A stretch of 64,000 bases of DNA, taken from assembly GCF_900169785.1 (NCBI RefSeq), contig NZ_FWER01000027.1:1-64000 (forward strand), in the 5' to 3' direction. This document shows, one piece after another, positions 16,445 to 33,000 of this stretch. How positions within the stretch are numbered: the stretch's first letter is position 1; the number at the start of each line of letters is the position of its first letter. A program made the translations under genes and the position numbers. The notes under the pieces were generated by a model. It had not been told where the DNA came from and searched no databases. It saw nothing but the letters and a program-made list of their open reading frames with translations. This DNA is from Rhizobium sullae. GTDB taxonomy: Bacteria; Pseudomonadota; Alphaproteobacteria; Rhizobiales; Rhizobiaceae.

Positions 16445-16484
16445 TGTTGTTCCCATTGTCTCTATGAAAGGATGCCCGGCTGTT

Positions 16485-17180
16485 TCAGACAGCCATATGC
16501 CGATGAACAAGCGCGTCGGAGAGCGCGTCGATCGCGCCAGCCGCGACCACACGTCCTTTCTCCAGCATCGCGAACTGGTGGGACGCGTGCCGCGCAAAGG
16601 CGACGTTTTGCTCGACAAGGACGATCGTCATGCCGATCTCGCGATTGAGCCGGATGATGATCTTTTCGATCTCCTCGACGATGGATGGCTGAATACCTTC
16701 GTTGGGTTCATCGAGAAGAAGCACCTTGGGGTCGGCGGCAAGCGCGCGGGCGATGGCAAGCTGCTGTTGCTGACCGCCCGAAAGCACGCCGCCCGGTCGA
16801 TCGAGGTTGGCCATCAGGTACGGAAAAAGCTCCGGCACCAGCGCTGGAATTTCGCGTTTGCCATCGGTTCGCGCAAAGGCGCCCATCAGGATGTTCTCGC
16901 GGATGGTGAAATCGGGAATGATCTCCCTGCCTTGCGGGACGTAGGCGATGCCGGCCCTTGCCCTTTCATGCGTCGGGGATGCGGCCATGTCCCTTTCCTG
17001 AAGACGCATCTCGCCCGTCATGCGGTCGGTCAATGCCATCAGGGTTTTCAACAGCGTCGTCTTGCCGGTGCCGTTGCGGCCGAGAATGCTCGTCACCTTC
17101 CCGGCCGGAACATCGAGCGTGACGCCGTGCAGGATATGGCTGCGGCCGTAATAGCTGTGCACGTCTTTCAACGACAGCAT
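16485..17180 (-). CDS. urtE: Urea/amide-type ABC transporter ATP-binding protein UrtE
   Basis: A 231-aa LivF-like ATPase. It has Walker A GRNGTGKTT, signature LSGGQQQQLAIARAL, Walker B LLLDEP followed by NEGIQPSIVEEI, a phrase characteristic of UrtE rather than LivF, and switch segment VLVEQN. Its ATG overlaps the urtD stop. With UrtD it drives an importer for urea, short amides or related compounds. Subfamily placement rests on the EGIQPS motif and on gene order. Confidence 0.88.
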   Translation of the reverse strand: MLSLKDVHSYYGRSHILHGVTLDVPAGKVTSILGRNGTGKTTLLKTLMALTDRMTGEMRLQERDMAASPTHERARAGIAYVPQGREIIPDFTIRENILMGAFARTDGKREIPALVPELFPYLMANLDRPGGVLSGGQQQQLAIARALAADPKVLLLDEPNEGIQPSIVEEIEKIIIRLNREIGMTIVLVEQNVAFARHASHQFAMLEKGRVVAAGAIDALSDALVHRHMAV

Positions 17181-17929
17181 CAGGATATTCCTTTCGAACC
17201 GAGATAGGCTTCACGGACTTTCAGGTTGCGCTCGATATCCTTGACACTTCCTTCCGCCAGAACCTCTCCGAGATGGAGAACGGTGATGCGCTCGGCGATT
17301 TCGCGGACGAACCCCATGTCGTGTTCGACGACGAGGATCGTATGGCGACCTTTGAGATTGTTGATGATCTGGGCCGTCTTGCGGGTTTCCGCCTGGGTCA
17401 TGCCGGCCGTCGGCTCGTCGAGCAGAACCACCTTGGGATCTTGGACGATGAGCATGCCGAGCTCCAGCCACTGCGTCTGGCCATGGCTGAGATAGGCGGC
17501 CATCACGTCCTGCTCGGCCTCGAGGCCGATGAGCGCAAGGACGTCGTCGACGCGGGTTGCCTCCGCACGCGAAAAGCCGAAGCGAAGATTGGCGAACACC
17601 GACGGATTGCGGCAATTGGCGACCTGCAGATTCTGCCGCACGGTAAGGTCGCGAAAGACGCTGGGGATCTGGAATTTCCGGCCAATTCCCGCGCGTGCGA
17701 TACGGTGCTCGGGCCAGTTTGTGATCTCGGTGTCGTAGACGAAGACCTTGCCCTGCGTGCTTTGGGTCTTGCCGCTGACCAGATCCATCAAGGTTGTCTT
17801 GCCGGCCCCGTTTGCGCCGAGCAGCACCCGCAATTCGCCGTCAAAGACGGTGATGCTGACATTGTTGACGGCGCGGAAGCCGCCGAAATCGACGCTAAGA
17901 CCGTCGATGGTCAATGCGATGGCGCTCAT
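17180..17929 (-). CDS. urtD: Urea/amide-type ABC transporter ATP-binding protein UrtD
   Basis: A 249-aa LivG-like ATPase with Walker A GANGAGKTT, the UrtD-type segment GIGRKFQIPSVFRDLTVRQN, signature LSHGQTQWLELGM (diverged from LSGGQ, as usual for UrtD), Walker B VVLLDEPTAGMT and switch VVEHDM. ATG 17929 is used; the longer frame is a shadow of urtC. It overlaps urtE and follows urtC after one base. Confidence 0.88.
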   Translation of the reverse strand: MSAIALTIDGLSVDFGGFRAVNNVSITVFDGELRVLLGANGAGKTTLMDLVSGKTQSTQGKVFVYDTEITNWPEHRIARAGIGRKFQIPSVFRDLTVRQNLQVANCRNPSVFANLRFGFSRAEATRVDDVLALIGLEAEQDVMAAYLSHGQTQWLELGMLIVQDPKVVLLDEPTAGMTQAETRKTAQIINNLKGRHTILVVEHDMGFVREIAERITVLHLGEVLAEGSVKDIERNLKVREAYLGSKGIS

Positions 17930-17930
17930 A

Positions 17931-19070
17931 TCACAATGCCTCGCTTTGCTGCTGTAAGGCCGGAAAGTCCTCGCTTGGTTTGCGCCTCCGGACGAACCAC
18001 CGCAGCACATCGTGCGCAAGACCGCCAAGGCCGCGCGGCATGAACAGCACGACCAGCACGAAGATGAGACCGATGATCGCCTTCCATGCCTCGACCAGCG
18101 CTTCTGTTTCGCTGACCTCCGCTTCGATCATGTTGATCAGGATCGCACCGATGCAGGCGCCAAGCAGGGACGAGCGGCCGCCGACGGCAGCCCAGACGAC
18201 CATCGTCACGGAGAAGGACAGATCCATGAATGTCGGCGAGGCAAACTCCGCGACGACCACATAGAGCATTCCGGCAACGCCGGCGATCCCCGCCGAAATG
18301 ACAAAGAAGAACACCTGGTAGAGCGAGACGTCGAAGCCGAGATACCGGGCGCGAACATGATCGTCGCGGATCGCCTGCAGGATCATGCCCGCGCGGGTTT
18401 CGACGATAAGACGGGCACCGATGAGGGTCAGCGACAGGCATACGGCACACAGATAATAGGTCGCCCTGCTGTAGGGATCGAATTCGATGCCGCCGATCGT
18501 CAGCCAGCCAAGATCCGTCAGGCCGTTGAAGCCGTTTGTGATCGGTTGCGCATCGACCATGACGAGACGGACGAGAAGAACGAGCGCCAGCGTGATGATC
18601 GAGACGAAAACGCCGGAAATGCGCTTGCGGAAAACAAGCATGCCGAGTGCGCCGGCAATCACCACCGGAAGCACAATGCCGAGCACGAGACCAACGGACT
18701 GGCTTTGAAAGGGAAGCCAGAGGAAGGAGCCCTTGTTGATGCAGCAAAGCTCCGTCGGAGCGCCGGGTTCGGCATTCCAGAGCATGAAATCCGGAACCGG
18801 CCTGTCAGAGCCCTGTTGGAGACTGGTCGGGCTCGACAGCTTGAGCGACATAGCGAGCATGTATGCGCCAAGACCGAAAAACAGTCCCTGGCCGAGATTG
18901 AGAATGCCGGCATATCCCCAGGTGAGCCCGATGGCGACGCCCAGCATGCCGTAGACCAGGTACTTCGAAATGCGATTCAGCCAGAATTCGTCGCCGAAAA
19001 CAGGCGCTGCAAAGATCACCGCGATGAAAAGCACGTAGGCGGCGATCTGGAATTTCCGTTCGATGCTCAT
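17931..19070 (-). CDS. urtC: Urea/amide-type ABC transporter permease UrtC
   Basis: A 379-aa LivM-like permease with about ten hydrophobic segments. The region GLTWGYAGILNLGQGLFFGLGAY is diagnostic of branched-chain/urea permeases, and the AIRDDHVRARYLGFDV segment is the ATPase-coupling loop. A Cys- and Pro-containing insertion (about 100-130, including PGAPTELCCINKGSF) lies between early helices, as in other UrtC proteins. ATG 19070 follows urtB after one base. Confidence 0.9.
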   Translation of the reverse strand: MSIERKFQIAAYVLFIAVIFAAPVFGDEFWLNRISKYLVYGMLGVAIGLTWGYAGILNLGQGLFFGLGAYMLAMSLKLSSPTSLQQGSDRPVPDFMLWNAEPGAPTELCCINKGSFLWLPFQSQSVGLVLGIVLPVVIAGALGMLVFRKRISGVFVSIITLALVLLVRLVMVDAQPITNGFNGLTDLGWLTIGGIEFDPYSRATYYLCAVCLSLTLIGARLIVETRAGMILQAIRDDHVRARYLGFDVSLYQVFFFVISAGIAGVAGMLYVVVAEFASPTFMDLSFSVTMVVWAAVGGRSSLLGACIGAILINMIEAEVSETEALVEAWKAIIGLIFVLVVLFMPRGLGGLAHDVLRWFVRRRKPSEDFPALQQQSEAL

Positions 19071-19071
19071 G

Positions 19072-19965
19072 TCAACGTCCCTTAAACGAGAACAGCCCGC
19101 TGGGCTTGACGAGAATGACGAGGATGACGACGCCGAACACAACGGCACGCGCCAGAATGTCGTTCGTGCCGATGGCCACCAGCGCGTTGATCTCTCCAAG
19201 CAGGCCCGAGGACAGGATGGTGCCGAAAAGGCTGCCGACCCCGCCGGTCACTACGACCATGAAGCCGTCGACGACCATCGTCGTGCCCATATCGGGAAAG
19301 ACGGTCTTGAAGCCGGACATCATCACGCCGGCGACGCCGGCAAGGCCGGAACCGAAAGCAAAAGTCATGGCGTTGACGCGTTTCACGTCGATACCGCAGG
19401 CTCCAGCCATTTTCGGATTTCGGATGATGGCGCGAACCTGCATGCCCGCCGCCGTCCGGTAGAGAATGAACCATGTTGCCAGCGTCAGCGCGGCGGTAAC
19501 AGCGATGATGAAGGTGCGGTAGGCGTTGATGTCCGCGCCGGCGAGCCTGAACGTGCCCTGAAGGTAGGCAGGCACCGCGACGTTCTGCAGGCCGGCCCCC
19601 AGACCTTCGACATGAAAGCCAAAAAAGGACAGGCCGAATTCGAGCCGCACGGCCTGCTGCAAAAGGATGGCAATGCCCCAGGTGGCGAGAAGCGTGTCCA
19701 GGAGACGACCGTAGAGCCGGCGGACGACCACCCGCTCGATCAGCAGGCCGAGCAGGGCCGTCACGACGAAGGCCAGAGGGATGGCGAGCAGAAGGCTTGC
19801 TTTCAGCCAGATGCCGGATAGGACGGCGACGTAGGCGCCGATCATCACCATCTCTCCATGGGCCATATTGATGACGCCCATGGCGCCGTAGGTGATGGCA
19901 AGGCCGAGCGCCACCAAAAGGAGGATCGAGCCGAGACTGAGGCCGATAAAGAGAATGTCGAGCAT
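19072..19965 (-). CDS. urtB: Urea/amide-type ABC transporter permease UrtB
   Basis: A 297-aa LivH-like permease with about eight hydrophobic segments. It shows the family-specific GAMGVINMAHGEMVMIGAY and the coupling segment VRAIIRNPKMAGACGIDVKRVN. The ATG at 19965 gives the usual length; the longer frame upstream enters the intergenic region after urtA. It forms the channel with UrtC. The 141-base gap to urtA may allow binding-protein excess. Confidence 0.9.
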   Translation of the reverse strand: MLDILFIGLSLGSILLLVALGLAITYGAMGVINMAHGEMVMIGAYVAVLSGIWLKASLLLAIPLAFVVTALLGLLIERVVVRRLYGRLLDTLLATWGIAILLQQAVRLEFGLSFFGFHVEGLGAGLQNVAVPAYLQGTFRLAGADINAYRTFIIAVTAALTLATWFILYRTAAGMQVRAIIRNPKMAGACGIDVKRVNAMTFAFGSGLAGVAGVMMSGFKTVFPDMGTTMVVDGFMVVVTGGVGSLFGTILSSGLLGEINALVAIGTNDILARAVVFGVVILVILVKPSGLFSFKGR

Positions 19966-20106
19966 AACGCCACCGTTCGTGAGAAGGGCGGGCCGGGACT
20001 TCCTGCCCGTTGCCCGTCCTGAACGCAGGATGGCAGCTTGCGGAAGAAAGGGGAGGCCGGCCTTGCCGAGACATGATCCCGCCATCCATTGATGGCGGGA
20101 CGACGG

Positions 20107-21357
20107 TCAGCCCTTGAGCTTTGTGGTGTCGAGACCGTTGCTGGTGCAGAAGAGATTGCTCTCCGTCTCGCCATAGGCCGAATAGGGCAGAGGCTTGATC
20201 GGTGCCGGGTAGGCGTTCACAACCTTGCTCTGGCCGTCCGCCTGCCATTGCCCGATGCGCGGCGTCAGCCAGCAATGCAGGTTGTCGGGGTCGGTGGTCA
20301 CCTTGCCGCCTGGCGCTTCATAGGTTTGGCCGCGAATGCCGGCCCTGATCGCATCAGCCGAAAGATCGCCGGATTTTTCGACGGCCTGTTTCCACAAAAA
20401 GACCTCGAAATAGGCTGCTTCGAGCGAATGGTATGTAACAGCCTTCGGATCGTTGACGAACGTCCTGAAGCGGTCGATGAAGCTCTTGTTTGCCGGCGTG
20501 TCGATCGACATGAAATAGGGGAAAGAGGTGTAGCTGCCGGCGGCATATTCGGCACCCATCGCCGCGATCTCGATTTCGGAGGTAACGGTCGCGCAGATAG
20601 GCAGAACCTCCTGCGAGAGCCCCTGGTTCTTGAACTCGCGGTAGAAGGCGATGATGGAGTCGCCGACAACGTTGGACAGAACCACGTCGGCGCCGGACTC
20701 CTTGATCTTGCTGACCATAACGGCCCATTCCGAATGGCCAAGCTCCAGATATTCGTCCGCCACCCATTCGGCACCGGCCGCCTCGATCAGCTTCTTGGAA
20801 ACCTTCGCCATTTCGCGCGGATAGACATAATTCGAACCGACGATAAAGAATTTCTTCTTGCCCAGTTTCTCGACGATCCAGGGAATGTAGTTGGAGAGTT
20901 GCTGGTTCGGAACGGCGCCGGAATAGACGACGTTGCGTGAGCACTCGAAGCCTTCGTAATGCGTCTGGTAGAACAACATCGCGCCGCGCCGCTCGAAGAT
21001 CGGCAGCACGGCCTTGCGGCTGGCCGAGGTATGGCAGCCGAACACGGTGGAAATCTTGTCCTTGAGGATCAGTTTCGAGGCTTTCTCACTGAAGGTCTTC
21101 GGATCGGAGGCCCCATCTTCGACGACCACCTCGACCGGACGGCCGAGCACGCCGCCGGCGGCGTTGATTTCTGCCACGGCCATCATCACGCCGTTTGCCA
21201 GAAGCTTTTCGGCAACGGAAAGCCCGCCGGTCTGAGAATAGAGCGCGCCGATCTTGATGGCATCGGCTGCGAAGGCGCGGCTACCCAATGCCGGCAGGGC
21301 GAATGCGGCGGAAGCGGTGGCTGCGGTTTTCAGAAATTCACGTCTGTTGAACACCAT
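20107..21357 (-). CDS. urtA: Urea/amide-type periplasmic binding protein UrtA
   Basis: A 416-aa type I periplasmic-binding-fold protein. The N-terminus FNRREFLKTAATASAAFALP is a twin-arginine signal with an AFA cleavage site. The mature part begins AIKIGALYSQTGGLSVAEKL. It is homologous over its length to the cytoplasmic sensor AmiC-like protein at 22228 (shared VFGCH, STRKAVLP/SRKAVLP, LFYxTxYEGFE and SNYVYP), so sensor and transporter probably bind the same ligand class. The family includes UrtA (urea) and FmdD (formamide/short amides). It is the first structural gene behind the leader terminator at 21464-21498. Confidence 0.88.
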   Translation of the reverse strand: MVFNRREFLKTAATASAAFALPALGSRAFAADAIKIGALYSQTGGLSVAEKLLANGVMMAVAEINAAGGVLGRPVEVVVEDGASDPKTFSEKASKLILKDKISTVFGCHTSASRKAVLPIFERRGAMLFYQTHYEGFECSRNVVYSGAVPNQQLSNYIPWIVEKLGKKKFFIVGSNYVYPREMAKVSKKLIEAAGAEWVADEYLELGHSEWAVMVSKIKESGADVVLSNVVGDSIIAFYREFKNQGLSQEVLPICATVTSEIEIAAMGAEYAAGSYTSFPYFMSIDTPANKSFIDRFRTFVNDPKAVTYHSLEAAYFEVFLWKQAVEKSGDLSADAIRAGIRGQTYEAPGGKVTTDPDNLHCWLTPRIGQWQADGQSKVVNAYPAPIKPLPYSAYGETESNLFCTSNGLDTTKLKG

Positions 21358-21463
21358 CTTGGTTCCCCTTTTTTTGAGTGGCGCGCACGGCGGCACGGCC
21401 CGCCGAACGGCGAGGCTTTCATGCCGGAAATAAGTAGAGAACTGACGTCACTGTCAGCAGACA

Positions 21464-21498
21464 ACAAAAAACCCGCGAGGCTTGTCACAGCCTGCGGG
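21464..21498 (-). terminator. Leader terminator between amiR and urtA
   Basis: On the minus strand CCCGC-AGGCT pairs with AGCCT-C-GCGGG around a short loop (21472-21498), followed by a run of T (21464-21471). It stands 107 bases before urtA in an operon context, so it is best read as an attenuator that AmiR overcomes. Confidence 0.72.
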
Positions 21499-21508
21499 CA
21501 TCCTTGCC
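21497..21508 (-). promoter_or_regulatory. Candidate ANTAR hairpin overlapping the terminator
   Basis: Minus strand GGC-AAGGAT-GCC: a hexaloop with A at position 1 and G at position 4, the signature recognised by ANTAR proteins. Its 3' arm shares two bases with the terminator stem, so the structures exclude each other. The stem is only three pairs, so this is tentative. Confidence 0.4.
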
Positions 21509-21542
21509 ATCACCGCATCACGGCTGCGCCGCGTGCAACAGC

Positions 21543-21600
21543 GGCACATGGCTTCATTAAACGAAGGGATGTGCCGAAGGTGTTTTCATCCGAAACACCT
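21543..21600 (-). promoter_or_regulatory. Two further leader hairpins after amiR
   Basis: On the minus strand, AGGTGTTT pairs with AAACACCT at 21578-21600, beginning just after the amiR stop. GGCACAT pairs with ATGTGCC, with an inner CTTC/GAAG stem, at 21543-21575. Neither has a T-run. They may stabilise the amiC-amiR mRNA or form part of the antitermination structure. Confidence 0.5.
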
Positions 21601-21606
21601 AAAAAA

Positions 21607-22215
21607 CTAATCATGTTTTCGGGGCGGGCGCAAGAGCTGTTCGGCGTTGATAATCGAATTGGCGATTTCGTCGATCGGCACGCGCCGGGTCATCGCCTGC
21701 TCGCGCATTTCGCGGTACGCCTCATTCTCACTGGTGCCGCGGTTGGCCATCAGAATGGCTTTTGCCCGTGCCAATTTCTGGTCACCCAGAACCTTGCGCT
21801 TGTACTTGCGTGCTTCCTTGACAAGCTTCTGGCGTTCGAGCCAAAGGTTGCGGGCGATGGCCAGATTGGTCAGGAGGCCGAAGGGTTTGATTGGTCTCTC
21901 GACGATGGCGAGCGCCCCGCTTTCCAGCACGATCTGCAACGTCGAGGGGTTTTCGTAACCGACGATGGCAAGCATGGTCGGGGCCGGGTTGGGAAAGGAC
22001 TTCAGGAGGCGCTCGATTTCCGGTCTCGCCTCATCCTCGATGGCAAGGAAGACGACATCCGTGCCGTGTGGCAATTCGGCTGGCACCGGCCAGAGGCAAT
22101 TGACCATGCAACCGATACGGCGCAGATGATCCACGAGAAAATCTCCCTCGGATGTCCGAGGGTGGATGACTAGAACCTTGAGATCCCGTAAATCTCTGAG
22201 AAGGGCGAACGACAT
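21607..22215 (-). CDS. amiR: ANTAR-domain RNA-binding antiterminator AmiR
   Basis: A 202-aa AmiR/NasT-type protein. The N-terminal pseudo-receiver (about 10-125) lacks the phosphoacceptor pattern of true response regulators. A coiled-coil linker (about 125-150, KLVKEARKYKRKVLGDQ) leads to the C-terminal ANTAR domain (KLARAKAILMANRGTSENEAYREMRE). ANTAR proteins bind paired hairpins in leader RNA and prevent termination. It is encoded 12 bases after amiC, as in the Pseudomonas amidase operon, where AmiC sequesters AmiR until amide binds. Two leader terminators with candidate ANTAR hairpins flank amiC-amiR. Confidence 0.9.
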   Translation of the reverse strand: MSFALLRDLRDLKVLVIHPRTSEGDFLVDHLRRIGCMVNCLWPVPAELPHGTDVVFLAIEDEARPEIERLLKSFPNPAPTMLAIVGYENPSTLQIVLESGALAIVERPIKPFGLLTNLAIARNLWLERQKLVKEARKYKRKVLGDQKLARAKAILMANRGTSENEAYREMREQAMTRRVPIDEIANSIINAEQLLRPPRKHD

Positions 22216-22227
22216 CTTCGCTCCCTC

Positions 22228-23379
22228 TCAAATCTGGACGTGGTGCGGGGAGGGCTGTGTGAAGTCCGGGCGATATTCACGCATGAACGGATCGGGCGCG
22301 ACCCTGAGAGAGGGATCGTAGACGATGTCATACCCGCCCTGAGCATTCACCCTGGCCACTCTTGGCCACAGATGCGTGTGGTTCGTCAGCCGGTCTATCT
22401 TAACTGCCCCCTGCGGTGCATCGTACTCGACGTCGTAAAGAGCCGGCAGAAGCTCCTCGAGCCGATCACCACCGGCGTGCTGCAAAGCCGCCGCATAGAG
22501 ATAAACCTGAAAGTAGGCGGCTTCGGCCGGCGCGGTGGGCGGCATCTGCAGGCCATAGCGCCGTTCGTAAGCGGAAACGAAGGCGCGGGCTCGCGGCGTA
22601 TCCAGGGACGCAAAGAAGGGGGCGGCGGTGATGTGCCCCTCCGCCACCTCCGGCCGCATGCGGATCACGTCGGCCTCGCTGGTCGACTGGCTCGAGATCG
22701 GCATCGTCGCCGCATCGAAACCGGCTTCCTTGAACGCGGTGTAGAAGGGAATGATGCCGTCGCCGACTACGGTCGAATAGATAACGTCCGGCCGGGCCGC
22801 GCGGATATGCCGGATGATTTTGGCGACGTCGTCTGGTTTGAGGTTCAGGGGAACGTACATCTCGTCCAGCACCTGTCCGCCCACCTGAAGAAAGAGGTCG
22901 CTGATCGTCCGGTTGGATTCATAAGGGTAGACATAGTTCGAGCCGACCAGAAAAACCCGCTTTCCGTAGTGCTTGGTCAGGAAGTCGACGAGCTGAACGG
23001 AGTTCTGATTGGGGGCTGCACCCGTATAGATGCAGTGACGGGAGTATTCGAACCCCTCATAGAGCGTCGGGTAGAACAGCAGCGCGTCACGGGCCTCAAT
23101 GACGGGCAGAACGGCTTTGCGGGTGCTCGACATATGGCAACCGAAAACGACCCGGATCCGGTCTTCGTCACACAGCCTGACCGCGAGCTCCTTGTAGAGA
23201 TTGGGCGTCGATTGCGGATCGTAGACGACCGGCTCGATCGCCCGCCCGAGAACGCCTCCCGCTGCGTTGATTTCGTCGATCGCCAGCAAGGTTGCCGCCC
23301 TTTGGGTTTTTTCCACGGCTCCGGTCACACCCGTTTCGGAGAACAGCACGCCGACCCGCCAATTTTCTGATTGTATCAT
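22228..23379 (-). CDS. amiC: Amide-sensing negative regulator AmiC
   Basis: A 383-aa type I periplasmic-binding-fold protein without a signal peptide (starts MIQSENWRVGVLFSETGVTG), so it acts in the cytoplasm. It is closely related to AmiC, the amide sensor that binds AmiR, and to the UrtA-like protein of the same operon. Conserved pocket segments include VVFGCHMSSTRKAVLP, LLFYPTLYEGFEYSRH and GSNYVYPYES. GGTGGG precedes the ATG at 23379. A terminator hairpin (23388-23427) sits directly in front of it, suggesting that the whole operon, including its own regulator, is under antitermination. Confidence 0.88.
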   Translation of the reverse strand: MIQSENWRVGVLFSETGVTGAVEKTQRAATLLAIDEINAAGGVLGRAIEPVVYDPQSTPNLYKELAVRLCDEDRIRVVFGCHMSSTRKAVLPVIEARDALLFYPTLYEGFEYSRHCIYTGAAPNQNSVQLVDFLTKHYGKRVFLVGSNYVYPYESNRTISDLFLQVGGQVLDEMYVPLNLKPDDVAKIIRHIRAARPDVIYSTVVGDGIIPFYTAFKEAGFDAATMPISSQSTSEADVIRMRPEVAEGHITAAPFFASLDTPRARAFVSAYERRYGLQMPPTAPAEAAYFQVYLYAAALQHAGGDRLEELLPALYDVEYDAPQGAVKIDRLTNHTHLWPRVARVNAQGGYDIVYDPSLRVAPDPFMREYRPDFTQPSPHHVQI

Positions 23380-23387
23380 CGCCCACC

Positions 23388-23427
23388 AAAAAATAAAAAA
23401 GCTCCCGCCCGTTTCCGGTCGAGAGCT
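23388..23427 (-). terminator. Leader terminator directly before amiC
   Basis: Minus strand AGCTC...GAGCT with an inner CCG-GAAA-CGG stem (23400-23427), followed by TTTTTT-A-TTTTTT (23388-23400). It ends about 9 bases before the amiC ATG, so termination here would silence the operon. An ANTAR-type hairpin overlaps its 5' arm. Confidence 0.75.
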
Positions 23428-23470
23428 ACCCTGCTCATGGACTATCAGCGGCCCATAGGAGCCTACCTAT
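23423..23470 (-). promoter_or_regulatory. Candidate dual ANTAR hairpins upstream of amiC
   Basis: Minus strand, 5' to 3': ATAGG-TAGGCT-CCTAT (23455-23470), then, 18 bases on, GAGC-AGGGTA-GCTC (23423-23436). Both have six-base loops with G at position 4; only the second has A at position 1. The second shares its 3' arm with the terminator stem, the arrangement used by AmiR/NasT/EutV antitermination. Confidence 0.58.
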
Positions 23471-23577
23471 CCATGATGTCAGTTTGTCAGTCCGGTGACA
23501 ATAGAGCGGCACGCTGAAAAGTTTGCACGGTTTTCGGAACATCCGCGTCGAAACGAAGAGCCGGAGGCGATGCATCG

Positions 23578-24060
23578 TTATCTGTCTGCATCCTCGAGAC
23601 GCATCGCAGCGCCATTCATCGCGATCATCGCGATCATCGCCGTTGGCGTATTGGTGTTGCCCGAGGTGATCGTCGGCATGATCGACGCATCAATCACGCG
23701 CAGACCCGTTACCCTGTGAAGCCGCAGGCGCGCGACGGACAGCGGGTCGTCCGCGTCCCATCTTCTCGATCCCGACCGGATGGAAGGTCGTGGTACCGAT
23801 ATCGCCGGCGGTCTTTGCCAGCGATGCCTCGTCGTCTCCGACGGCTCTGCCCGGAGGAAGCTCTTCCGGCTTATGCGGCGTCAATGCGGGCCGCGCCATC
23901 AGCTTTCGGGTAACGCGGATGGCATCCGCGTCACCCGTCTGTCTTCCGCCGTCGTCAGATACTGTGAGGCGATGACGGACGCTCGTGGATCGTTACCTCG
24001 GGCCGGCATAGATGTTGGTCGTTGGCTTCGCAAAGTAATTACCGCTAGCAGCATTAGAGG
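23578..24060 (-). pseudogene. GMC oxidoreductase C-terminal remnant
   Basis: Pieces of the C-terminal part of a choline-dehydrogenase-type GMC oxidoreductase lie in order but in different frames on the minus strand: RGNDPRASVIASQYLTTAED, then [18 protein letters not shown] with TTTFHPVG, then [20 protein letters not shown] ending [10 protein letters not shown]. At least two frameshifts are needed and the N-terminal FAD part is absent. The stop complement is at 23578-23580. The 5' boundary lies next to tRNA-like copy B (24074). It is clearly dead, and its family is firm. Confidence 0.8.
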
Positions 24061-24073
24061 ATACCGGCGCCGC

Positions 24074-24095
24074 GGTTCGTTTCCTTTCAAGACCA
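24074..24095 (+). repeat. tRNA 3'-end look-alike, copy B
   Basis: GGTTCGTTTCC followed by TTTCAAGACCA. The T-loop-like part has T where A58 is expected. It lies beside the broken end of the GMC pseudogene. See copy A at 13461. Confidence 0.35.
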
Positions 24096-24245
24096 AGAAG
24101 GCTTATCATTCTCCCGAGCACTGAGAAGGCTGTTCGGAACAGATCCAAACTCGACGAAGACAACAGTGCATTCATTGCTTGCAGAAGCATCTTTATCGAT
24201 GTCAGGAGTTGCAACTTCTGGATGCGCTTCGGTCAACGTAGAAAT

Positions 24246-25028
24246 TCAGAAACGATGAATGCGAAGGCCCAGCACTTTCTCCGACAATATGACGACGAAC
24301 AAGGTCAGCACGATTGATACCGTCGACACGGCGGCAGCCTCGGGGGTGAAATTCGTGCGCAGATAGTCGTAGAGCTGGATTGGAAGCGTGGCGGTTCCCA
24401 CGTTCTTCAGCATGAAGGATATGGTGAACGTGTCGAAGGATATGATGAAGGCGAACAGGCATCCGCCAATCACGCCGGGCTTGATCAGCGGCAGCATGAT
24501 ACGGCGAAACCGCGTCAATGGTCGGGCGCCGAGGCTCTTGGCCGCCAGGCTCCAGGACGGTTCGTAGGACTCCATCGCCGCCGAAACGTTGATGAAGACG
24601 AAGGGAAGGGTGATGAGGCAATGGCCGATGACCATCGCCGCGATCGTTCGTGTGCCCATGCCGATCGAGTAGACGAAGAACAACAGCGAGATGGCCGTTA
24701 GCACTTCCGGCAGCAGCAGCGGCAGAAGCATGGCGAGCCGGATGCTTTCCTTCCAGCGTCCGGCATGCTGGACATAGAAGATTGCCGCCATCGTGCCGAT
24801 GATCGAGGAGATCACGGTCGAGACCGCGGCCACCCAGAGCGATGTCTTGATCGCGCTAAGGAAGACCTCATTGTGAAAGAACACGACATACCAGCGAAAT
24901 GAAAGTCCCTGTGGCGGAAATGTCAGGAAGGCGCCGGCATTGAAAGACGCGCCGACGACCACGAGGATCGGCAGCAGCAGAAAAGCGTAGATCATCAGGC
25001 AGTAGCCGGTGAGGAGATGCCTGGACAT
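24246..25028 (-). CDS. ABC transporter permease (PotC-like)
   Basis: A 260-aa inner-membrane permease with about six helices. It has the PotC-type opening FLLLPILVVVGASFNAG, FPPQGLSFRWYVVFFHNE and the EAA motif LAAKSLGARPLTRFRRIMLP. ATG 25028 overlaps the stop of the PotB-like gene. It is the last gene of the operon read from 34988 down and works with the proteins at 25028, 25882 and 27061. Confidence 0.9.
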   Translation of the reverse strand: MSRHLLTGYCLMIYAFLLLPILVVVGASFNAGAFLTFPPQGLSFRWYVVFFHNEVFLSAIKTSLWVAAVSTVISSIIGTMAAIFYVQHAGRWKESIRLAMLLPLLLPEVLTAISLLFFVYSIGMGTRTIAAMVIGHCLITLPFVFINVSAAMESYEPSWSLAAKSLGARPLTRFRRIMLPLIKPGVIGGCLFAFIISFDTFTISFMLKNVGTATLPIQLYDYLRTNFTPEAAAVSTVSIVLTLFVVILSEKVLGLRIHRF

Positions 25029-25885
25029 CAGTTTGCCTTCCATTTCATGCCGGTCAGCCTTGCAAACAGCATCACCATGATCGCGCCGGTCAGAGACAGC
25101 ATCAGCGCCATGGCCGAGCCGAAAGGCCATTGAAACGTGTCGATAAGTGCGTCGACCACGCTGACCGCCATCGTCTTTACGCGCAGGCCGCCGATCAAGG
25201 ACGGCGTGACGTAGGCGCTGAGCGATAGGATAAAGACCAGTATGCAGCCGGCCTGTATGCCTGGCATCGCCAGCGGCAGAACAATTCTTCGAAAGGCGGT
25301 GATGCGTCCGGCTCCGAGCGACCGGGCAGCCGCTTCGATCGACGGATCTATCCCCTGCAGCGCGCTCATAAGCGGAAGGATCATGAAGGGCAGGAAGACA
25401 TGCATCAGGGCAATCACGATCCCAAGGGAGTTATACATCAGGGCAAGGGGGCGATCGATCAGGCCGAGGCTGATCAGAGTGCGGTTTATCATGCCGTTAT
25501 TGCCCAGCAGGATCGTCCAGCCATAGCTGCGGATGACGATGCCCACGAGAAGCGGTGAGAGCACGAGGCCATAGGCCAGGCCACGAAAACGCATCTGGGT
25601 CTTCGCAAGCTGCCATGCGACAGGGAAGCCGAGAACAAGGCAGACAGAAGTGGTGATGAAACCGATCATCAACGTGTTTGCGGTCTGCTCCAAATAAAAG
25701 CTGTCGGCGAAGAGCCTGAGATAGTTCCCCAGGGTGAAGCCAGGCGCAAAGGGCGTCCCGTTCCCCGGATTGCGCAGGCTCATGATCACGATGTTGATGT
25801 ATGGCAATACCAGGAAGACGCCGAGTAGCAGCACAGCCGGGGCTATCAAAACAAAGGGCTTCAGAGATTTCGCTCGAAGGCTCAT
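25028..25885 (-). CDS. ABC transporter permease (PotB-like)
   Basis: A 285-aa inner-membrane permease. The N-terminal helix is FVLIAPAVLLLGVFLVLPYI. The EAA motif is AARSLGAGRITAFRRIVLPLA, followed by PGIQAGCILVFILSLSAYVT. The start overlaps the ATPase stop by four bases (ATGA) and the stop overlaps the PotC-like start, so the three genes are translationally coupled. Confidence 0.9.
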   Translation of the reverse strand: MSLRAKSLKPFVLIAPAVLLLGVFLVLPYINIVIMSLRNPGNGTPFAPGFTLGNYLRLFADSFYLEQTANTLMIGFITTSVCLVLGFPVAWQLAKTQMRFRGLAYGLVLSPLLVGIVIRSYGWTILLGNNGMINRTLISLGLIDRPLALMYNSLGIVIALMHVFLPFMILPLMSALQGIDPSIEAAARSLGAGRITAFRRIVLPLAMPGIQAGCILVFILSLSAYVTPSLIGGLRVKTMAVSVVDALIDTFQWPFGSAMALMLSLTGAIMVMLFARLTGMKWKAN

Positions 25886-26946
25886 GCGGCAGCTCCGAGC
25901 GCCCAGAAGCGATCGCCATCGACCTTGATGGTGACACGGTCGCCCGTAGAGAAGCGGTTGCGGGGAAAGGTCTGAACGCTGATCGTGTCGCCGCCGGCGA
26001 GTGCCAGCCGATAGTCGATCAGGCTGCCCGAATAGTAGCTCGCAGTGATGGTGGCCGTGGCGCCTGCCTGCCCGGCGCTTTCCGGAAACAGCTCGACGGC
26101 CTCGGGCCGCAGCACCAGCGTCACGGCTCCATCGGGCGACCGGGGCATATTGCCGATCCTGACCGTGCCGAGCGCGGTATCGATGACCGAAACACCGTTC
26201 GCTTCGGTGCATAGCAGCCGACCGGACAGAATGTTGACCTGCCCCACGAACTGCGCGACTTCCAGGCTCGCCGGCCGATCATAGATATCGGCTGGCGCGC
26301 CATACTGGGCGATCTGCCCACCAAACATGACGACGACACGATCCGACATGGTCATTGCCTCGGCCTGATCGTGGGTCACGTAAACGGTGGTGATGCCAAC
26401 ACGCTTCTGAAGATCGCGGATGAAGACGCGCATCTCCTCGCGCAGCTTGGCGTCGAGGTTGGCAAGCGGCTCGTCGAGAAGGAGAATTCGGGGCTCGATC
26501 ACCAGCGCTCGAGCAAGGGCGACGCGTTGTTGCTGTCCACCGGAAAGCTGGCGCGGATAGCGATCCGCATATCCGGAGAGCTGCACCATATCCAGCACAC
26601 GGGCCGTGCGCTCGGCGATCTCGCGTTTCGGTCTGCGACGCATCTCCAGTCCGAACGCCAGGTTTTGAGCAACGGTCATATGCGGGAACAGGGCGTAGTT
26701 CTGGAAGACCATGCCGATGTCGCGTTTTTCGGCAGGCACATGCACGACGTCCTGCCCATCGAAACGGATCGCGCCTGATGTAGCGTCCTCAAAACCGGCT
26801 ATCATTTTCAGCGTGGTTGTCTTACCGCAGCCGGAAGGGCCAAGAAGGGAGATAAACTCCCCCTTCGCGATTTTCACGGAAATGCCGTTTACCGCAAGAG
26901 ATGCCCCATAGTGCTTGCTCAGCGCTTCGATGCTCACCTCTGTCAT
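25882..26946 (-). CDS. ABC transporter ATP-binding protein (PotA-like)
   Basis: A 354-aa ATPase. Walker [11 protein letters not shown]-loop [12 protein letters not shown], signature [15 protein letters not shown], Walker B ILLLDEP, D-loop LANLD and switch [10 protein letters not shown] are intact. A TOBE-type C-terminal domain spans about 240-350 ([11 protein letters not shown]). ATG 26946 is used; the frame extends to 27018 without a better start. It follows the binding-protein gene after 114 bases. Confidence 0.92.
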
Positions 26947-27060
26947 GATCGATCTTCCAAATTCTGTCGGCGGCGATCGCGTCCATGCCACCATGCCGGG
27001 AAAAGAGCCGGACCGCATGATGGCGGGCCGGCATATAGCGAGGGGATGATCAAGGCGCGC

Positions 27061-28098
27061 CTAGCGCATGACCTTTGCCCAGGTCTCCGAGAATTCGGCC
27101 TGCTTTTGGTTCATGAAATTCCAATCCCATGTCAGGATCTTGTCCATTGCCTCGCCCGAGATCGGCACATCCTTTTGCAGGTCGGCCGGGACCACCACCT
27201 TGGAATTGGTGGGTGAAACGAAAAACTGCTTCATGAGCGGTATCTGCCCCTCCGGGGAGAGCAGGAAGCCGGCATATTGATAGGCGAGTTCCTTTTCCGG
27301 GGCGTGGGCAAGAATATTCAGCGTCTGGTCGAACATCAGCATGCCCTCTTCGGGAACGACGACATCGATCGGCAGCCCCTGGGATCGCAAGCGCGCCACC
27401 TCGCCGAAGTCAAAGGGCGCAACCACGAATTCGCCCGCTGCAATGCCCGTCGACAGATTGAAATCCGCCTGTATGACCGGGCCGAGCTTTTCCAGCGCCT
27501 TGAAGCCGGCATCGATGTCATATTGATCCTTGCCGAAGATCTTCGATGCCAGCATCAGCTCCATCTTGCCGGCTGTATTGGCGAAGTTGTAGAGGCCGAT
27601 GCGCCCCTTGAATTCCGGATTCTCCCAAAGGTCCTTCCACCCCTTTGGCGGGGTTTTGACCATATCGGTGCGGTAGGCGATGCCGATCGGCGAGACCATC
27701 GCCACGGCGCCCCAACCATCCGTCTTCTTCGCAAGAGGGTAGAGATCGTTGTAGTGCGACAGTTTCGTCAAATCGAGCTTCTCGAAGAACCCTTCCTTGC
27801 GCAGGCTGGAGGCGAAGGCCTCGTTGGTCATCAGGATCGAATAGGGCGGGTTTTCAGCGCCCGCCGCCCGCAGGTTGGCACTCCAGACACGACCGTTGCC
27901 GGCATCGAGTGTCACCGCGGCACCGCTCTTTGCCGTAAATGCCGGTGCGAGCGTCGAGCGCCAGAACTGTTCCCAGGCGCCGCCGAGCGTTGGCACCACA
28001 AGCGTCTTATTTTGCGCGCGCGCAGGAAGGCTGATCATGCTTGCTGCGGCAAGGCCGCCCATTCCGGCAAGAAGCTGCCGCCTGTTCATGTTCATCAT
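27061..28098 (-). CDS. Tat-exported solute-binding protein of a Pot-type ABC transporter
   Basis: A 345-aa binding protein. The N-terminus MMNMNRRQLLAGMGGLAAAS carries a twin-arginine motif and ends at PARAQ. The mature protein begins KTLVVPTLGGAWEQFWRSTL. AGGGGAACCGAG precedes the ATG at 28098. It belongs to the PotD/Fe(III)-binding superfamily, which also binds amino acids, opines and carboxylates. With the neighbouring oxidative enzymes the ligand is probably a hydroxy- or keto-acid or its conjugate; this is inference. Confidence 0.9.
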   Translation of the reverse strand: MMNMNRRQLLAGMGGLAAASMISLPARAQNKTLVVPTLGGAWEQFWRSTLAPAFTAKSGAAVTLDAGNGRVWSANLRAAGAENPPYSILMTNEAFASSLRKEGFFEKLDLTKLSHYNDLYPLAKKTDGWGAVAMVSPIGIAYRTDMVKTPPKGWKDLWENPEFKGRIGLYNFANTAGKMELMLASKIFGKDQYDIDAGFKALEKLGPVIQADFNLSTGIAAGEFVVAPFDFGEVARLRSQGLPIDVVVPEEGMLMFDQTLNILAHAPEKELAYQYAGFLLSPEGQIPLMKQFFVSPTNSKVVVPADLQKDVPISGEAMDKILTWDWNFMNQKQAEFSETWAKVMR

Positions 28099-28158
28099 CT
28101 CGGTTCCCCTTGTCATGGCTGCGTGTCGGTGGCTGCTGCGCGCTAGGTCTGCTTGCGC

Positions 28159-29124
28159 TCAGGACTTGCTGAAGGCCTGACTTGTCTTCAGCGCGATATA
28201 GTCTCCGTAGGTAATCGGCGTGTATTTCGCCGGCGCCTTTGCCGCAAAGGGCGGCAGGCATTCGATGAGCGTCTCTTTCGACGGATTGACAAAGAAGGGA
28301 ATGGATTGACGCCGTGTCATTCCCTTGAAGTTGCCGGGCGGATTGGCAACCCGATGCGGCGTCGACAGCCATTCGTCATTGGTCCAGCGCATGAAGGCAT
28401 CGGCAATATTGACGACATAGGCGCCTTCGACATTCGGCGCATCCAGCCATTCGCCATCGCGCCTGCGGACCTGAAGCCCTCCTGGAGATGCTTCCGAGCG
28501 CAGAATGGTCATGAAGCCGTAATCGGTATGGACGCCAGCACGCAACTGTCCGGGCAGCGGGCTTTCCTGTTGTTCCGGATAGTTGATGACACGGAGTGCT
28601 GAAAGGTGGTCGGCAAACGCCGGCTCGAAGTAGTCGGGCGCAAGCCCGATCGCCTGGCAGAATGCGCGCCGCAGATGCCCGGCGAGCATCTCCATCTCGG
28701 CAAAATAGGCGTTGAAGGCCGCATGCAATCCTTGTGGAACCGTGGGCCAGACATCACCCGGAAGGCGCGGCCCGAAATTCAGGCTTTCCTTGTAGTCACC
28801 CGGCGTCTTGATCCCAAGCGTGGCGCTCAGCGCCTCGTCCGCGATGGGGGAGAAGGCGACACCCCCCTTTAGCGAAGTTCCCCGGCCTTGTTGCTTCTTC
28901 CAGTCCTGCGGTTCGTCGAAGAAATCTCGGGCAAGATTGTAAAGCTGTGCGGTCGCCTCGGTGGAGACGCCATGTCCGGTGATCAGGAAGAAGCCGGTTT
29001 CGCGGCAGGCGGCTTCGATCGCCTTGACGACGGCATCGCTACCGGCGGTCTGATGGATGAAAGGCGAGATATCTATGACCGGAATGCTGTCCATATCCTG
29101 CCTTGAGGATGGGGCCATCTGCAT
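28159..29124 (-). CDS. 2-oxoglutarate/Fe(II)-type oxygenase (isopenicillin-N-synthase-like)
   Basis: A 321-aa cytoplasmic oxygenase. The N-terminal DIOX_N region has IPVIDISPFIHQ and GFFLITGHGVS. The double-stranded beta-helix core carries the iron ligands His199-x-Asp201 (GVHTDYGFMT) and His257 (STPHRVANPP), and Arg272-x-Ser274 (RRQSIPFF) for 2-oxoglutarate. AAGGATC precedes the ATG at 29124. It lies between the binding protein and the enoyl-CoA hydratase, so it may hydroxylate or demethylate the pathway substrate. Related bacterial proteins are often uncharacterised. Confidence 0.88.
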   Translation of the reverse strand: MQMAPSSRQDMDSIPVIDISPFIHQTAGSDAVVKAIEAACRETGFFLITGHGVSTEATAQLYNLARDFFDEPQDWKKQQGRGTSLKGGVAFSPIADEALSATLGIKTPGDYKESLNFGPRLPGDVWPTVPQGLHAAFNAYFAEMEMLAGHLRRAFCQAIGLAPDYFEPAFADHLSALRVINYPEQQESPLPGQLRAGVHTDYGFMTILRSEASPGGLQVRRRDGEWLDAPNVEGAYVVNIADAFMRWTNDEWLSTPHRVANPPGNFKGMTRRQSIPFFVNPSKETLIECLPPFAAKAPAKYTPITYGDYIALKTSQAFSKS

Positions 29125-29199
29125 TGTCTGATCCTTTCCGGAGTGAACACAGCCATGTTGTCGTGGCGCTTCGACGCCACACCTGCGTGGGAGATGATG

Positions 29200-30021
29200 T
29201 CAGTCGAGCCCCTTGAAGGGTGCGTCGCGAAATTCGAGGTATTCCTTCAGCGACATCTTCTGAAGATTGCGCATCCATTCCTGCCCGTCCTTGCTGACAT
29301 GGAGGGCGGCAATAGCGTGCACGTTGTAGTCGAAGGATGTCATCAGGCCGGCGGCGATCTGCTGGTTGTTGATGGAGGACTTGGCGAACTTGATGGCCGG
29401 AACCGGCATGCGCGCCAGTTTGCGTGCGAGGTTCTCGGTCTTTTGCTTGAGCTGATCGGCGGGCACGATCTTGTTGATCAGATGCATGCGCAGGGCCTCT
29501 TCAGCATCCACCAGATCACCGGTATACATCAGCCAACGGACGTCGCGGGTGGCCAGCAGCCACGGCATGAACAGGGCAGGCGGACCGGAATTGTGCCGGA
29601 CTTCCGGCTCGCCAAACTTGGCGTTGTCGGCGGCGATCGCAAGATCGCATGACATGACGAGTTCGAGCGCCCCGGCAAGCGCATAGCCGTTCACCGAGGC
29701 GATGACGGGAATTGGAGCTTTCCAGATATTCAGAAGCGCCTGGGCATTTTCCGACATGTCGGCATGCCAGTCCTCGATACTGACGTCATAGTCTGCGCCT
29801 TGCAGGTCATAGCCGGCCGAAAACGCGCGACCGGCACCCGTAATCACCAGCGCGTTGACGTCCTTGTCGGCGACGGCAAGCGCAACGGCGCGGTCGATCT
29901 CGCGCACTGTCGTCTTGTTCATCGCATTGAGCTTGTCCGGCCGATTGATGGTGATCGTCGCGAACTTGTCCTGTTCGTCCTTGTCGTAGAGAATGGTTTC
30001 GAAGCTCTCGGCCATGCTCAT
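29200..30021 (-). CDS. Enoyl-CoA hydratase/isomerase family protein
   Basis: A 273-aa crotonase-fold enzyme acting on CoA thioesters. The oxyanion-hole segments GRAFSAGYDLQG and NGYALAGALELVMSCDLAIA are present. One of the usual catalytic Glu positions falls in GALELV; the second region reads FGEPEVRHNSGPP. Its start overlaps the stop of the ferredoxin oxidoreductase gene (ATGA), so its substrate is probably the acyl-CoA produced by that enzyme. Hydratase and isomerase activities cannot be told apart here. Confidence 0.9.
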   Translation of the reverse strand: MSMAESFETILYDKDEQDKFATITINRPDKLNAMNKTTVREIDRAVALAVADKDVNALVITGAGRAFSAGYDLQGADYDVSIEDWHADMSENAQALLNIWKAPIPVIASVNGYALAGALELVMSCDLAIAADNAKFGEPEVRHNSGPPALFMPWLLATRDVRWLMYTGDLVDAEEALRMHLINKIVPADQLKQKTENLARKLARMPVPAIKFAKSSINNQQIAAGLMTSFDYNVHAIAALHVSKDGQEWMRNLQKMSLKEYLEFRDAPFKGLD

Positions 30022-33000
30022 ATGCTTTTCCTCTTTACGCTGGGGTCAGCCGGTTCCGATGCAGTGCTCGATGCCTGCATTAGCAGGGCCGCCTTGTTCT
30101 TCTCGAAACGTTCTATCGATGCTGATTTGACGGGACCAAACCCCCTGATCTGATCGGGGAGTTGGGCGAGCGCGATGGCGCGCTGCTGGTTTTCCGGGGA
30201 CAGGTTTGCTGAGAGGTCCGTGATCAATGCCGTGTAATCGGCGATCAGTTTGCGCTCGATGCGACGCTCGTGCGTATAGCCGAACGGATCAAGCGGCGTG
30301 CCGCGAAGGACACGCATTTTCTCCAGCACGGAGAATGCCGGCGAAATGAGCTTGCGGCCGATCGCAATCTTTGCAGGGTTGCCGGTGCGCTTGTCGATCT
30401 TTCGGGAAAAGAGCGGCGGCGCGAGATGGTGCTTGATCTCAAAATCACCTTCGAACTGCGCGGTGATCTTGTCCTTGAAGCTCCGGTCGTTGTGGAGACG
30501 GGCCACTTCATATTCGTCCTTATAGGCCATCAGCTTGAAGGCATTGCGCGCGACGGCTTCGGAAAAATCCTCTCCGAGCTTCAGTCGGGCCTCGGCATTG
30601 CGGGCAGTCGTCACCAGCTTGCGGTATTTGTCGGCATAGGCGGTGCTCTGATAGCGCGTCAGGAACTCGATGCGCTTGGCGACGAGGTCGTCCAGCGTCT
30701 GCTTGGCAGGCACCTCGTCCAGGTCGATTGCGGCGGCTTGTTTGACAGCTTCCGGATCGACCACCGAGCGACGGCCCCAGCCAAAGGCTGCGCGGTTCAT
30801 CGCAATGCCTGTGCCGTTGAGGTCGATTGCCGCATCGATTGCCTCGAGGCTGATTGGGACAAGTCCGCGCTGCCAGGCGTGGCCAAGCAGGAACATGTTG
30901 GCCGCGATCGCGTCACCCATCAGGGCCGCTCCCAGTTTCGTCGCTGCGATAAGGCTAATGGCGTTGTCGCCAGCCGCTTTGCGCAACGCCTTCAACGTCG
31001 CTTCCTGACGAAAATCGATCGCGGTGTTCTGCACAAATGAGGCGGTCGGCGCGAAATGATCGTCGAGAACGGCCTTGGTGCGGCCGGTAGCGAAGGTGGA
31101 CAGGGCGTTCTGCGCCGCGGACACGACGATATCGAAGCCGAGGACCAGATCGCTTTCCCCCGGTCCGATGCGTACGGAGGTGATCTGCTCTCGCGTCCTT
31201 GCGACCCGCAGATGCGAGATGACGGCCCCATTCTTCTGGGCAAGGCCGGTCTGGTCGAGTGTCTGCACGGCAAGGCCGTCGATGTGCGCGGCCATCGACA
31301 TTATGGCGCTGACGGTGATGACGCCCGTCCCGCCGATGCCGGCGAGCAACATGTTGTAGGATCGGTCGGTGATCGGTGGGATGGTCGGAAGGGGGAGGTC
31401 GTCGAAGCTTGCCTTGCTTGCTTTTGCGTCTGGCTTGCGGATGGTCCCGCCCTCGACGGTGACGAAGCTCGGACAGAAGCCTTTTACGCAGGAAAGATCG
31501 GTGTTGCAGCTCGACTGGTTGATCCGCCGCTTGCGGCCGAACTCCGTTTCCTGCGGTTCGATGGAGATGCAATTGGAAACCGCGGAGCAGTCGCCGCAGC
31601 CCTCGCAGACGAGTTCGTTGATGAAGGCGCGCTTGTCGGAGACAGTCAAAGCGCCTCGCTTGCGCCGGCGCCGTTTTTCGGCAGCGCAAACCTGATCGTA
31701 GACGAGGACGGTAACGCCCGGCACCTCACGCAGTTCGCGTTGCACCGCATCCAGTTCGTCACGGTGGTTGATGGTAACGCCGCGCGGCAGATTGCCTTGC
31801 CAACCCTCGGGGCGCTCGGCGACCACCGCGACCCGGGCGGCTCCTTCGGCCAGCATCTGCCCGACAATGCCGGGAACGGAGACGTCGCCGTCATGCTTTT
31901 GGCCGCCGGTCATGGCAACCGCGTCGTTGTAGAGGATCTTATAGGTGGCGTTGACCTTGGCGGCAATTGCGGCGCGGATCGCAAGCAGCCCGGAGTGGAA
32001 ATAGGTGCCGTCGCCCATGTTGACGAAGATATGCTTCTCGTCGGTGAACTGGGAAAGGCCGATCCACGAGCCGCCTTCGCCGCCCATCTGGGTGAAGGTC
32101 GAGGTATTCCGCTCTTCCAACCCGATCACCATCATATGACAGCCGATGCCGGTCGACGCGCGGCTTCCCGCCGGCAGTCGGGTGGAAATACTGTGCGGAC
32201 AGCCTGAGCAGAAATAGGGATCGCGCTTCAGTGCCGGCGTTTCCGCAGCAGTTGCTGCGAGGAGTGTCTCGATATCGCGCGATCGGGCCTGCAGATCGGT
32301 CTGATACTCACCGAGGACCGAGATAATCGCCTTCGCGACGGCAACGGCGTTGAGCTCGCCGGCCGCAGCCAAGAGCGGTCTGCCATTCGCGCCGAATTTT
32401 CCATAGACTCTCGGGCGCCGGTCGGAGGCCATGTTGAAAAGCTGAGCCTTGATCTGGTCTTCGACGACCGCGCGCTTTTCCTCGACCACCAACAAGGTTT
32501 CGACGCCGGATGCGAAGCGTTGAAGGCCCTCCGGTTCGATCGGCCAGACCATGCCGATCTTGTAAAGCCGGATGCCGAGTTCGCCGGCCCGGCGCTCGTC
32601 GATGCCAAGGCTTGCCAGTGCTCCCATGAGGTCGAGCCACGATTTCCCGGTCGCAACGATGCCGAGCCTCGCCCTGCCGGCAGTGCTGCCCCAGCTCGTT
32701 TTGTCGATGCTGTTTTGACGGGCGAAAGTGTGTATCGCCTCCATCTTGTTTTCCAGCCGCCGCTCCATCGCATGTGGGCCATCCGGCCATCGCAATGAGA
32801 GGTCGCCATGACCATCGGGATAGACGATGGCGGGCCGATCGGGATCGAGCTCGACCGTTGCGGTGCACTCGACGATTTCCGTCTGGCATTTGAAACCGAC
32901 CCAGGCGCCGGAATAGCGGCTGAGTGCCCAGCCAAGCAATCCATAGTCGATATATTCCCCAACGCCAGCCGGCGACAGCAACGGCACCATTGCGGAGATC

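Follow-up and report, generated by a model that had tools for sequence, protein, structure and literature searches.

AmiR-dependent antitermination is, by homology, the best reading of the amiC leader, and the segment at 23466-23388 on the minus strand, with its mechanism taken as a whole, is quite likely an attenuator that halts transcription of the amiC-amiR-urtABCDE operon until AmiR opens it. All positions are those of the window, the whole 64,000-nucleotide stretch of DNA that was analysed. Without ligand, AmiR would be held by AmiC, and RNA polymerase would halt at the U-tract before amiC. With the presumed ligand, AmiR would be released and would grip the hexaloop of the P2 hairpin as it emerges, which would deny the terminator its GCUC segment and let polymerase enter amiC-amiR. 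Further on, polymerase would read through another terminator of this kind, which lies ahead of urtA. The levels of the sensor and the regulator would rise jointly by action of the operon itself, with the second gate giving access to the transporter genes. The kind of system, ANTAR antitermination, is already known, and its mechanism has been described (PMC3369931, PMC8934654); the layout here is reduced and unusual. If the reading is true, the operon is unlocked by two of its own products, an amide- or urea-type sensor and its antiterminator, which go on to open another gate ahead of the transporter, and nature here provides a test of ANTAR antitermination by a single hexaloop. On the question of one hexaloop or two, the genetic model of 2012 and the structural model of 2022 disagree.

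The genes on the minus strand are, in order, amiC, amiR, urtA, urtB, urtC, urtD, urtE and a nitrilase-family hydrolase gene. The amiC product (23379-22228) has a Peripla_BP_5 domain and its best PDB matches are the AmiC proteins of 1pea (E = 3.1e-102) and 1qo0. The product of amiR (22215-21607), an ANTAR antiterminator with AmiR_N and ANTAR domains, matches AmiR, chain D of 1qo0 (E = 1.3e-27). We take AmiC of 1pea and AmiR of 1qo0 chain D to be Pseudomonas aeruginosa proteins. Judged by their sequences, AmiC and AmiR are a sensor and its ANTAR regulator. Next on the strand is urtA, a gene for an UrtA-like binding protein (21396-20107). Annotations of A. fabrum C58 pAt and R. johnstonii 3841 pRL12 show an operon with the genes in the identical order, and AmiR is found at E <= 1e-40 in 87 records of a plasmid collection, 62 of which are typed as conjugative. 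The genome (G000) has four ANTAR domains; besides AmiR, three ANTAR-domain proteins are encoded on contigs C159 and C175.

Anatomy of the amiC leader

Read 5' to 3' on the minus strand, a predicted sigma70-type promoter, TTGTCA-17-CATCAT (23501-23473), is followed by GGATAGGTAGGCTCCTATGGGCCGCTGATAGTCCATGAGCAGGGTAGCTCTCGACCGGAAACGGGCGGGAGCTTTTTTATTTTTTGGTGGGCG and then by the ATG. The promoter comes from a consensus scan, and the match is weak by itself because the same scan of 15000-34000 gave 4 promoter-like sites compared with 5.3 expected in shuffles. Its pairwise identity among 17 related leaders is.864, against.425 for the 6 nt that follow. The -10-like element ends at 23473, from which we infer that transcription of the operon starts near 23466. 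A short tandem repeat, TCATCGCGA, is present in 2.8 copies upstream of the promoter (23616-23640).

The P2 hexaloop hairpin, GAGC-AGGGTA-GCTC (23436-23423), has A at loop position 1 (A1), G at position 4 (G4) and a closing C-G pair, and it is the putative antiterminator hairpin bound by AmiR. Its 3' arm, GCTC, sits within the 5' arm of an intrinsic terminator hairpin, AGCTCTCGACCGGAAACGGGCGGGAGCT (23427-23400), and the two hairpins therefore exclude each other. The U-tract, TTTTTTATTTTTT (23400-23388), ends nine positions 5' of the amiC ATG at 23379. Both the position of the terminator nine bases before amiC and the overlap of GAGC-AGGGTA-GCTC with its 5' arm had been claimed in the first-pass annotation of this DNA, and both are borne out. 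The terminator should win over P2 when no protein is bound, because its predicted folding energy is -17.6 kcal/mol compared with -4.0 kcal/mol for P2 alone, and because it also forms in a fold of the whole leader, where GAGC pairs instead with a GCTC of the P1 region. A fold-based scan lists this terminator and a simple scan misses it.

Rfam gave no matches in the window at the gathering score. A whole-model match to ctRNA_p42d under relaxed settings (23388-23432) reached 18.4 bits compared with a cut-off of 50, and we read it as a chance resemblance to the terminator.

Conservation and spread of the amiC site

The alignment of amiC leaders joins the window to 16 distinct leaders from Rhizobium, Neorhizobium, Agrobacterium and Pararhizobium, one of which comes from a member of the window's genus, and to two from Shinella; counts on 17 leaders refer to the Rhizobium/Agrobacterium group, with Shinella set aside. 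In these 17, pairwise identity is.983 in P2 and.988 in the terminator (23428-23401), compared with.687 at third codon positions of amiC. Invariant columns make up 12/14 of P2 and 26/28 of the terminator; within amiC, no 36-nt window exceeds 28. All four P2 pairs are kept in 17/17 orthologs. There are no two-sided base-pair changes in P2 or the terminator anywhere in the alignment, since the core hardly varies, and covariation is consequently not informative among the rhizobia. The flanking genes differ between loci, which argues that the terminator belongs with amiC and not with the upstream gene.

More distant leaders preserve the same core or a changed form of it. In one Bradyrhizobium locus (L096), 43/44 nt of the core are identical, whereas amiC identity is 69% and the bases upstream diverge; the best 43-nt window of its amiC coding sequence matches at 38. 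This locus and L099, which share the genus of L048 (Bradyrhizobium by record) and have AmiR identities of 70-72%, each score 66 bits with a leader model built without them. L048 and L050 have GAAC-AGTGTG-GTTC on a different terminator, its stem compensated and its A1 and G4 kept. This form, GAGC-AATGGA-GCTC and GAGC-AACGAA-GCTC are the P2 versions of other groups, and in the two Shinella leaders P2 is GAGC-GGGGTG-GCTC with G1 instead of A1.

Additional AmiR targets were sought in the genome with two exact or near-exact patterns and a leader model (R1). The P2 14-mer, with at most one mismatch, occurs once in the 7.9-Mb genome and 0 times in the reversed control. Model R1 exceeds 100 bits in 4 of 100 genomes of the genus, exactly those that encode this AmiR, and its score elsewhere does not pass 27.3 bits, a result that is informative mainly as absence elsewhere because close relatives are built into the model. 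Four weak matches (26-27 bits) lie in other genomes of the genus, and Rfam identifies a tRNA at one such locus.

Hexaloops of this type are uncommon on control terminators. Among 151 distinct control terminators found outside these leaders by the same terminator finder, an overlapping G4 hexaloop occurs on 8 and one with both A1 and G4 on 2. A terminator was found in 27 of 49 distinct amiC leaders, and 26 of the 27 have the G4 hexaloop and 22 have A1 and G4. When AmiR identity is below 80%, 10 of 32 leaders have a terminator, with G4 on 9 and A1 and G4 on 5; the one without a hexaloop (L062) sits far upstream of amiC. Counts of P2 position 4 from a G4-filtered scan are biased and do not enter these figures. 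If the hexaloop is chosen blind to its letters, G4 is present in 9/9 diverged amiC leaders compared with 7/47 control terminators, and in 6/6 when one leader is taken per lineage (p ~7e-5), p-values being guides only because the loci are related. The letter-blind pick in Shinella, CGGG-GTGGCT-CTCG, is a register-shifted hairpin and not the homologous P2.

The predicted urtA site is the widespread one, and the amiC site is that of a close group plus scattered lineages. The latter comprise the two Shinella leaders, Bradyrhizobium L048, L050, L096 and L099, and also L056/L058, L065/L066, L071 and L082. Of the 32 distinct amiC leaders whose AmiR is less than 80% identical, 22 gave no detected terminator, a count that includes L048 only because its T-run is interrupted. 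The fold-based scan gave no amiC-leader terminator in Rhodopseudomonas L049 (70% AmiR identity), and the hexaloop-terminator was not seen in ten amiC leaders of Bradyrhizobium paralogs (53-55%). A looser T-run rule found terminators in 2 of these ten and an overlapping hexaloop in 0, in a scan that merged duplicates only partly, repeated the window locus and missed the hexaloop of L096 and L099. Control at amiC is thus not general, given the 22 of 32 leaders and the paralogs.

Several other leaders contain related elements. A canonical hairpin, GAAAC-AGNGNC-GTTTC and often longer, lies near the amiC promoter in L064, L067, L072-L075 and L081, where a terminator was undetected. A second AmiC/AmiR-like group (L022-L034, AmiC-like identity 32-35%) has leaders with terminator-like ends, and 8 of its 13 loci carry GGGC-AGTTTC-GCCC, a hexaloop with A1 but U4 that possibly reflects a different loop specificity.

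Upstream hairpins and other readings

In the window's lineage, P2 appears to be the only canonical hexaloop on which the attenuator depends, and the place of P1 is taken by a non-canonical hairpin. The dual-hexaloop definition of ANTAR targets (PMC3369931) combines an ANTAR regulator encoded in the operon or genome, a terminator whose 5' arm overlaps P2, a P2 stem of at least 3 pairs with a six-base loop bearing A1 and G4, and a P1 hexaloop with A1 and G4. The first three are present at amiC, with GAGC-AGGGTA-GCTC as P2. Within 160 nt upstream of amiC, P2 is the only A1/G4 hexaloop with a stem of at least 4 pairs in the Rhizobium/Agrobacterium leaders, and no such P1 was found. The minimal motif was reduced to one hexaloop with G4 in structural work of 2022 (PMC8934654), and this motif is present. 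We consequently regard the amiC leader as a variant that would work like an AmiR attenuator. In the account of eutP in PMC3369931, deletion of P1 abolished induction, which counts against our best explanation because no canonical P1 was found in the Rhizobium/Agrobacterium amiC leaders.

The first-pass annotation had drawn a two-hairpin ANTAR layout with a second six-loop hairpin 18 bases upstream of P2, ATAGG-TAGGCT-CCTAT (23470-23455). This hairpin exists in the window as a perfect 5-bp stem with a six-base loop, and two distant orthologs do have canonical pairs of hexaloops (GGATC-AGCGTC-GATCC with GAGC-AACGAA-GCTC in L065, and GGGTC-AGCGCC-GACCC with GAGC-AATGGA-GCTC in L066), but a full target with this hairpin as P1 is most improbable, and we rejected it. 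It forms fully in 1/17 orthologs, with 56/85 cells paired (66.3% of 89 cells across 19 rows), and its pairing changes are not in excess of shuffles. Its loop begins with U, compared with A in the published motif. Most of its 5' arm lies in the promoter discriminator, before the predicted start, so the hairpin is probably transcribed only in part. Its 18-nt linker also exceeds the 14 nt that impaired eutP, as reported in PMC3369931, where the P1-P2 linkers of the eut genes of E. faecalis are given as 5-12 nt. Across the orthologous leaders, where absence of the hairpins was to count against the annotation, the upstream hairpin is all but confined to the window and the terminator-overlapping one is present. 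A conserved hairpin at the 5' end of the leader, GGCT-CCTATG-GGCC (23463-23450), occupies the P1 position instead, and that it is a relaxed P1 of a dual attenuator with altered P1 loop specificity is a doubtful but not negligible reading. All 4 pairs form in 16/17 orthologs (67/68 cells), mostly around a six-base loop, and the linker to P2 is 13 nt. However, its loop is without A1 and G4, and it has no two-sided changes relative to the commonest pair, the types being UG/UA/CG and GC/GU. An extra loop base is present in L041 and L043, the segment is missing in the two Shinella leaders, and in L096 its place is taken by another hairpin, whose loop has seven bases.

The leader could also be a plain terminator, which ends an upstream transcript or acts as a constitutive brake, with the hexaloop as a by-product of its 5' arm. 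Its folding energy and long U-tract are compatible with this, genes on the same strand end about 0.85 kb before it, and such a hexaloop is also present on 8 of the control terminators. We nevertheless hold this to be improbable, as amiC keeps the terminator while the upstream genes differ, G4 is retained in all nine diverged leaders, and the 5' half of P2, which is dispensable for a terminator, is also nearly invariant. That another ANTAR protein of the same genome acts on the leader in place of this AmiR is less probable still: the genome has candidates in its four ANTAR domains, but the 4 of 100 genus genomes with strong leader matches are those that encode this AmiR.

Known ANTAR systems and the urtA leader

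Antitermination by AmiR at a P2 hexaloop would place this leader beside three described systems. The same sensor-regulator pair is found in P. aeruginosa AmiC-AmiR/amiE (PDB 1qo0), where the leader terminator of amiE is thought to be opened by AmiR (PMC3369931); the likeness drawn here is that of the proteins and of this description. The known target there lies before amiE, whereas the sites here lie before amiC itself and the urt transporter genes. The Enterococcus faecalis EutV/eut system shares the A1/G4 hexaloop, the conserved closing pairs and the overlap with the 5' arm of the terminator, and as described has four attenuators in one operon (PMC3369931, PMC8934654). Unlike the amiC leader in the window's lineage, where no canonical P1 was found, eutP is reported to require one, and the parts of the eut literature consulted do not describe a hexaloop after the terminator such as that of the urtA leader. 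The NasT/NasR nitrate attenuators also have an ANTAR protein that acts on leader terminators, with NasT paired with NasS (PMC6759348, PMC3795266), but the sensor and the target genes are others. Urea transporter genes are already among the ANTAR targets predicted in PMC3369931. A search of the main texts of agrobacterial transcriptome papers with a few terms found no mention of the amiC leader.

The urtA leader contains a P2 hexaloop, GGC-AAGGAT-GCC (21508-21497, minus strand), that overlaps an intrinsic terminator (21499-21471, -19.7 kcal/mol) followed by a T-run. Of 35 distinct urtA leaders, 34 have a terminator, and a G4 hexaloop overlaps it in 34/34, with A1 in 20; when the letters are ignored, G4 is found in 33/34, the exception being L056, where another hairpin is picked. 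Because of this 34/34 overlap, the two-point control that the first-pass annotation proposed, with AmiR-type attenuators before the sensor gene and before urtA, is plausible and gains support from the leader sequences. The overlap is less regular among Bradyrhizobium paralogs that were added later. At AmiR identity below 60%, the looser rule gave 22 urtA terminators, 19 with a hexaloop and 17 with G4; the urtA terminators of L103, L109 and L110 are without a hexaloop. P2 is preceded, at a distance of 5-10 nt, by a canonical A1/G4 hairpin in 12/17 diverged urtA leaders, and it starts with U in most of those 12.

A further canonical A1/G4 hexaloop, CTGAC-AGTGAC-GTCAG (P3, 21457-21442, minus strand), follows the urtA terminator. 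If A1 and G4 are demanded, P3 is found in 32/35 distinct urtA leaders and is missed in L055, L068 and L070. If neither letter is demanded, a hairpin with a closing C-G pair is found in 32/35, with G4 in 32 and A1 in 31; in many leaders, a rule that takes the longest stem chose hairpins other than P3. The stem varies as CTGAC/GTCAG, CCGAC/GTCGG and CCGAC/GTTGG. With later loci included, some of them duplicates, P3 is present in 18/18 leaders with AmiR identity above 80%, 5/5 at 60-80% and 11/22 below 60%, and it was not seen in the 53-55% Bradyrhizobium paralogs. Its motif, CTGACANNGNNGTCAG, occurs once in the window's whole genome. Among the top-listed titles and abstract beginnings of the AmiR, ANTAR and hexaloop literature, no description of a post-terminator ANTAR hexaloop was found.

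P3 cannot block the urtA terminator, but it may keep AmiR on the transcript during elongation, act as a second checkpoint or influence how urtA mRNA is translated or how stable it is. It would be a new element and is directly testable. We tentatively suggest, as a possibility somewhat short of even, that AmiC-AmiR-Urt operons have an ANTAR hexaloop layout outside the two-hairpin model, in which a single canonical hexaloop suffices at amiC in rhizobia and P3 lies beyond the terminator at urtA. The urtA leader also contains an upstream hairpin, GGCACATCCCTTCG...GAAGCCATGTGCC (21575-21543, minus strand), that is kept in rhizobial relatives and has a recognisable counterpart in Bradyrhizobium L048/L050.
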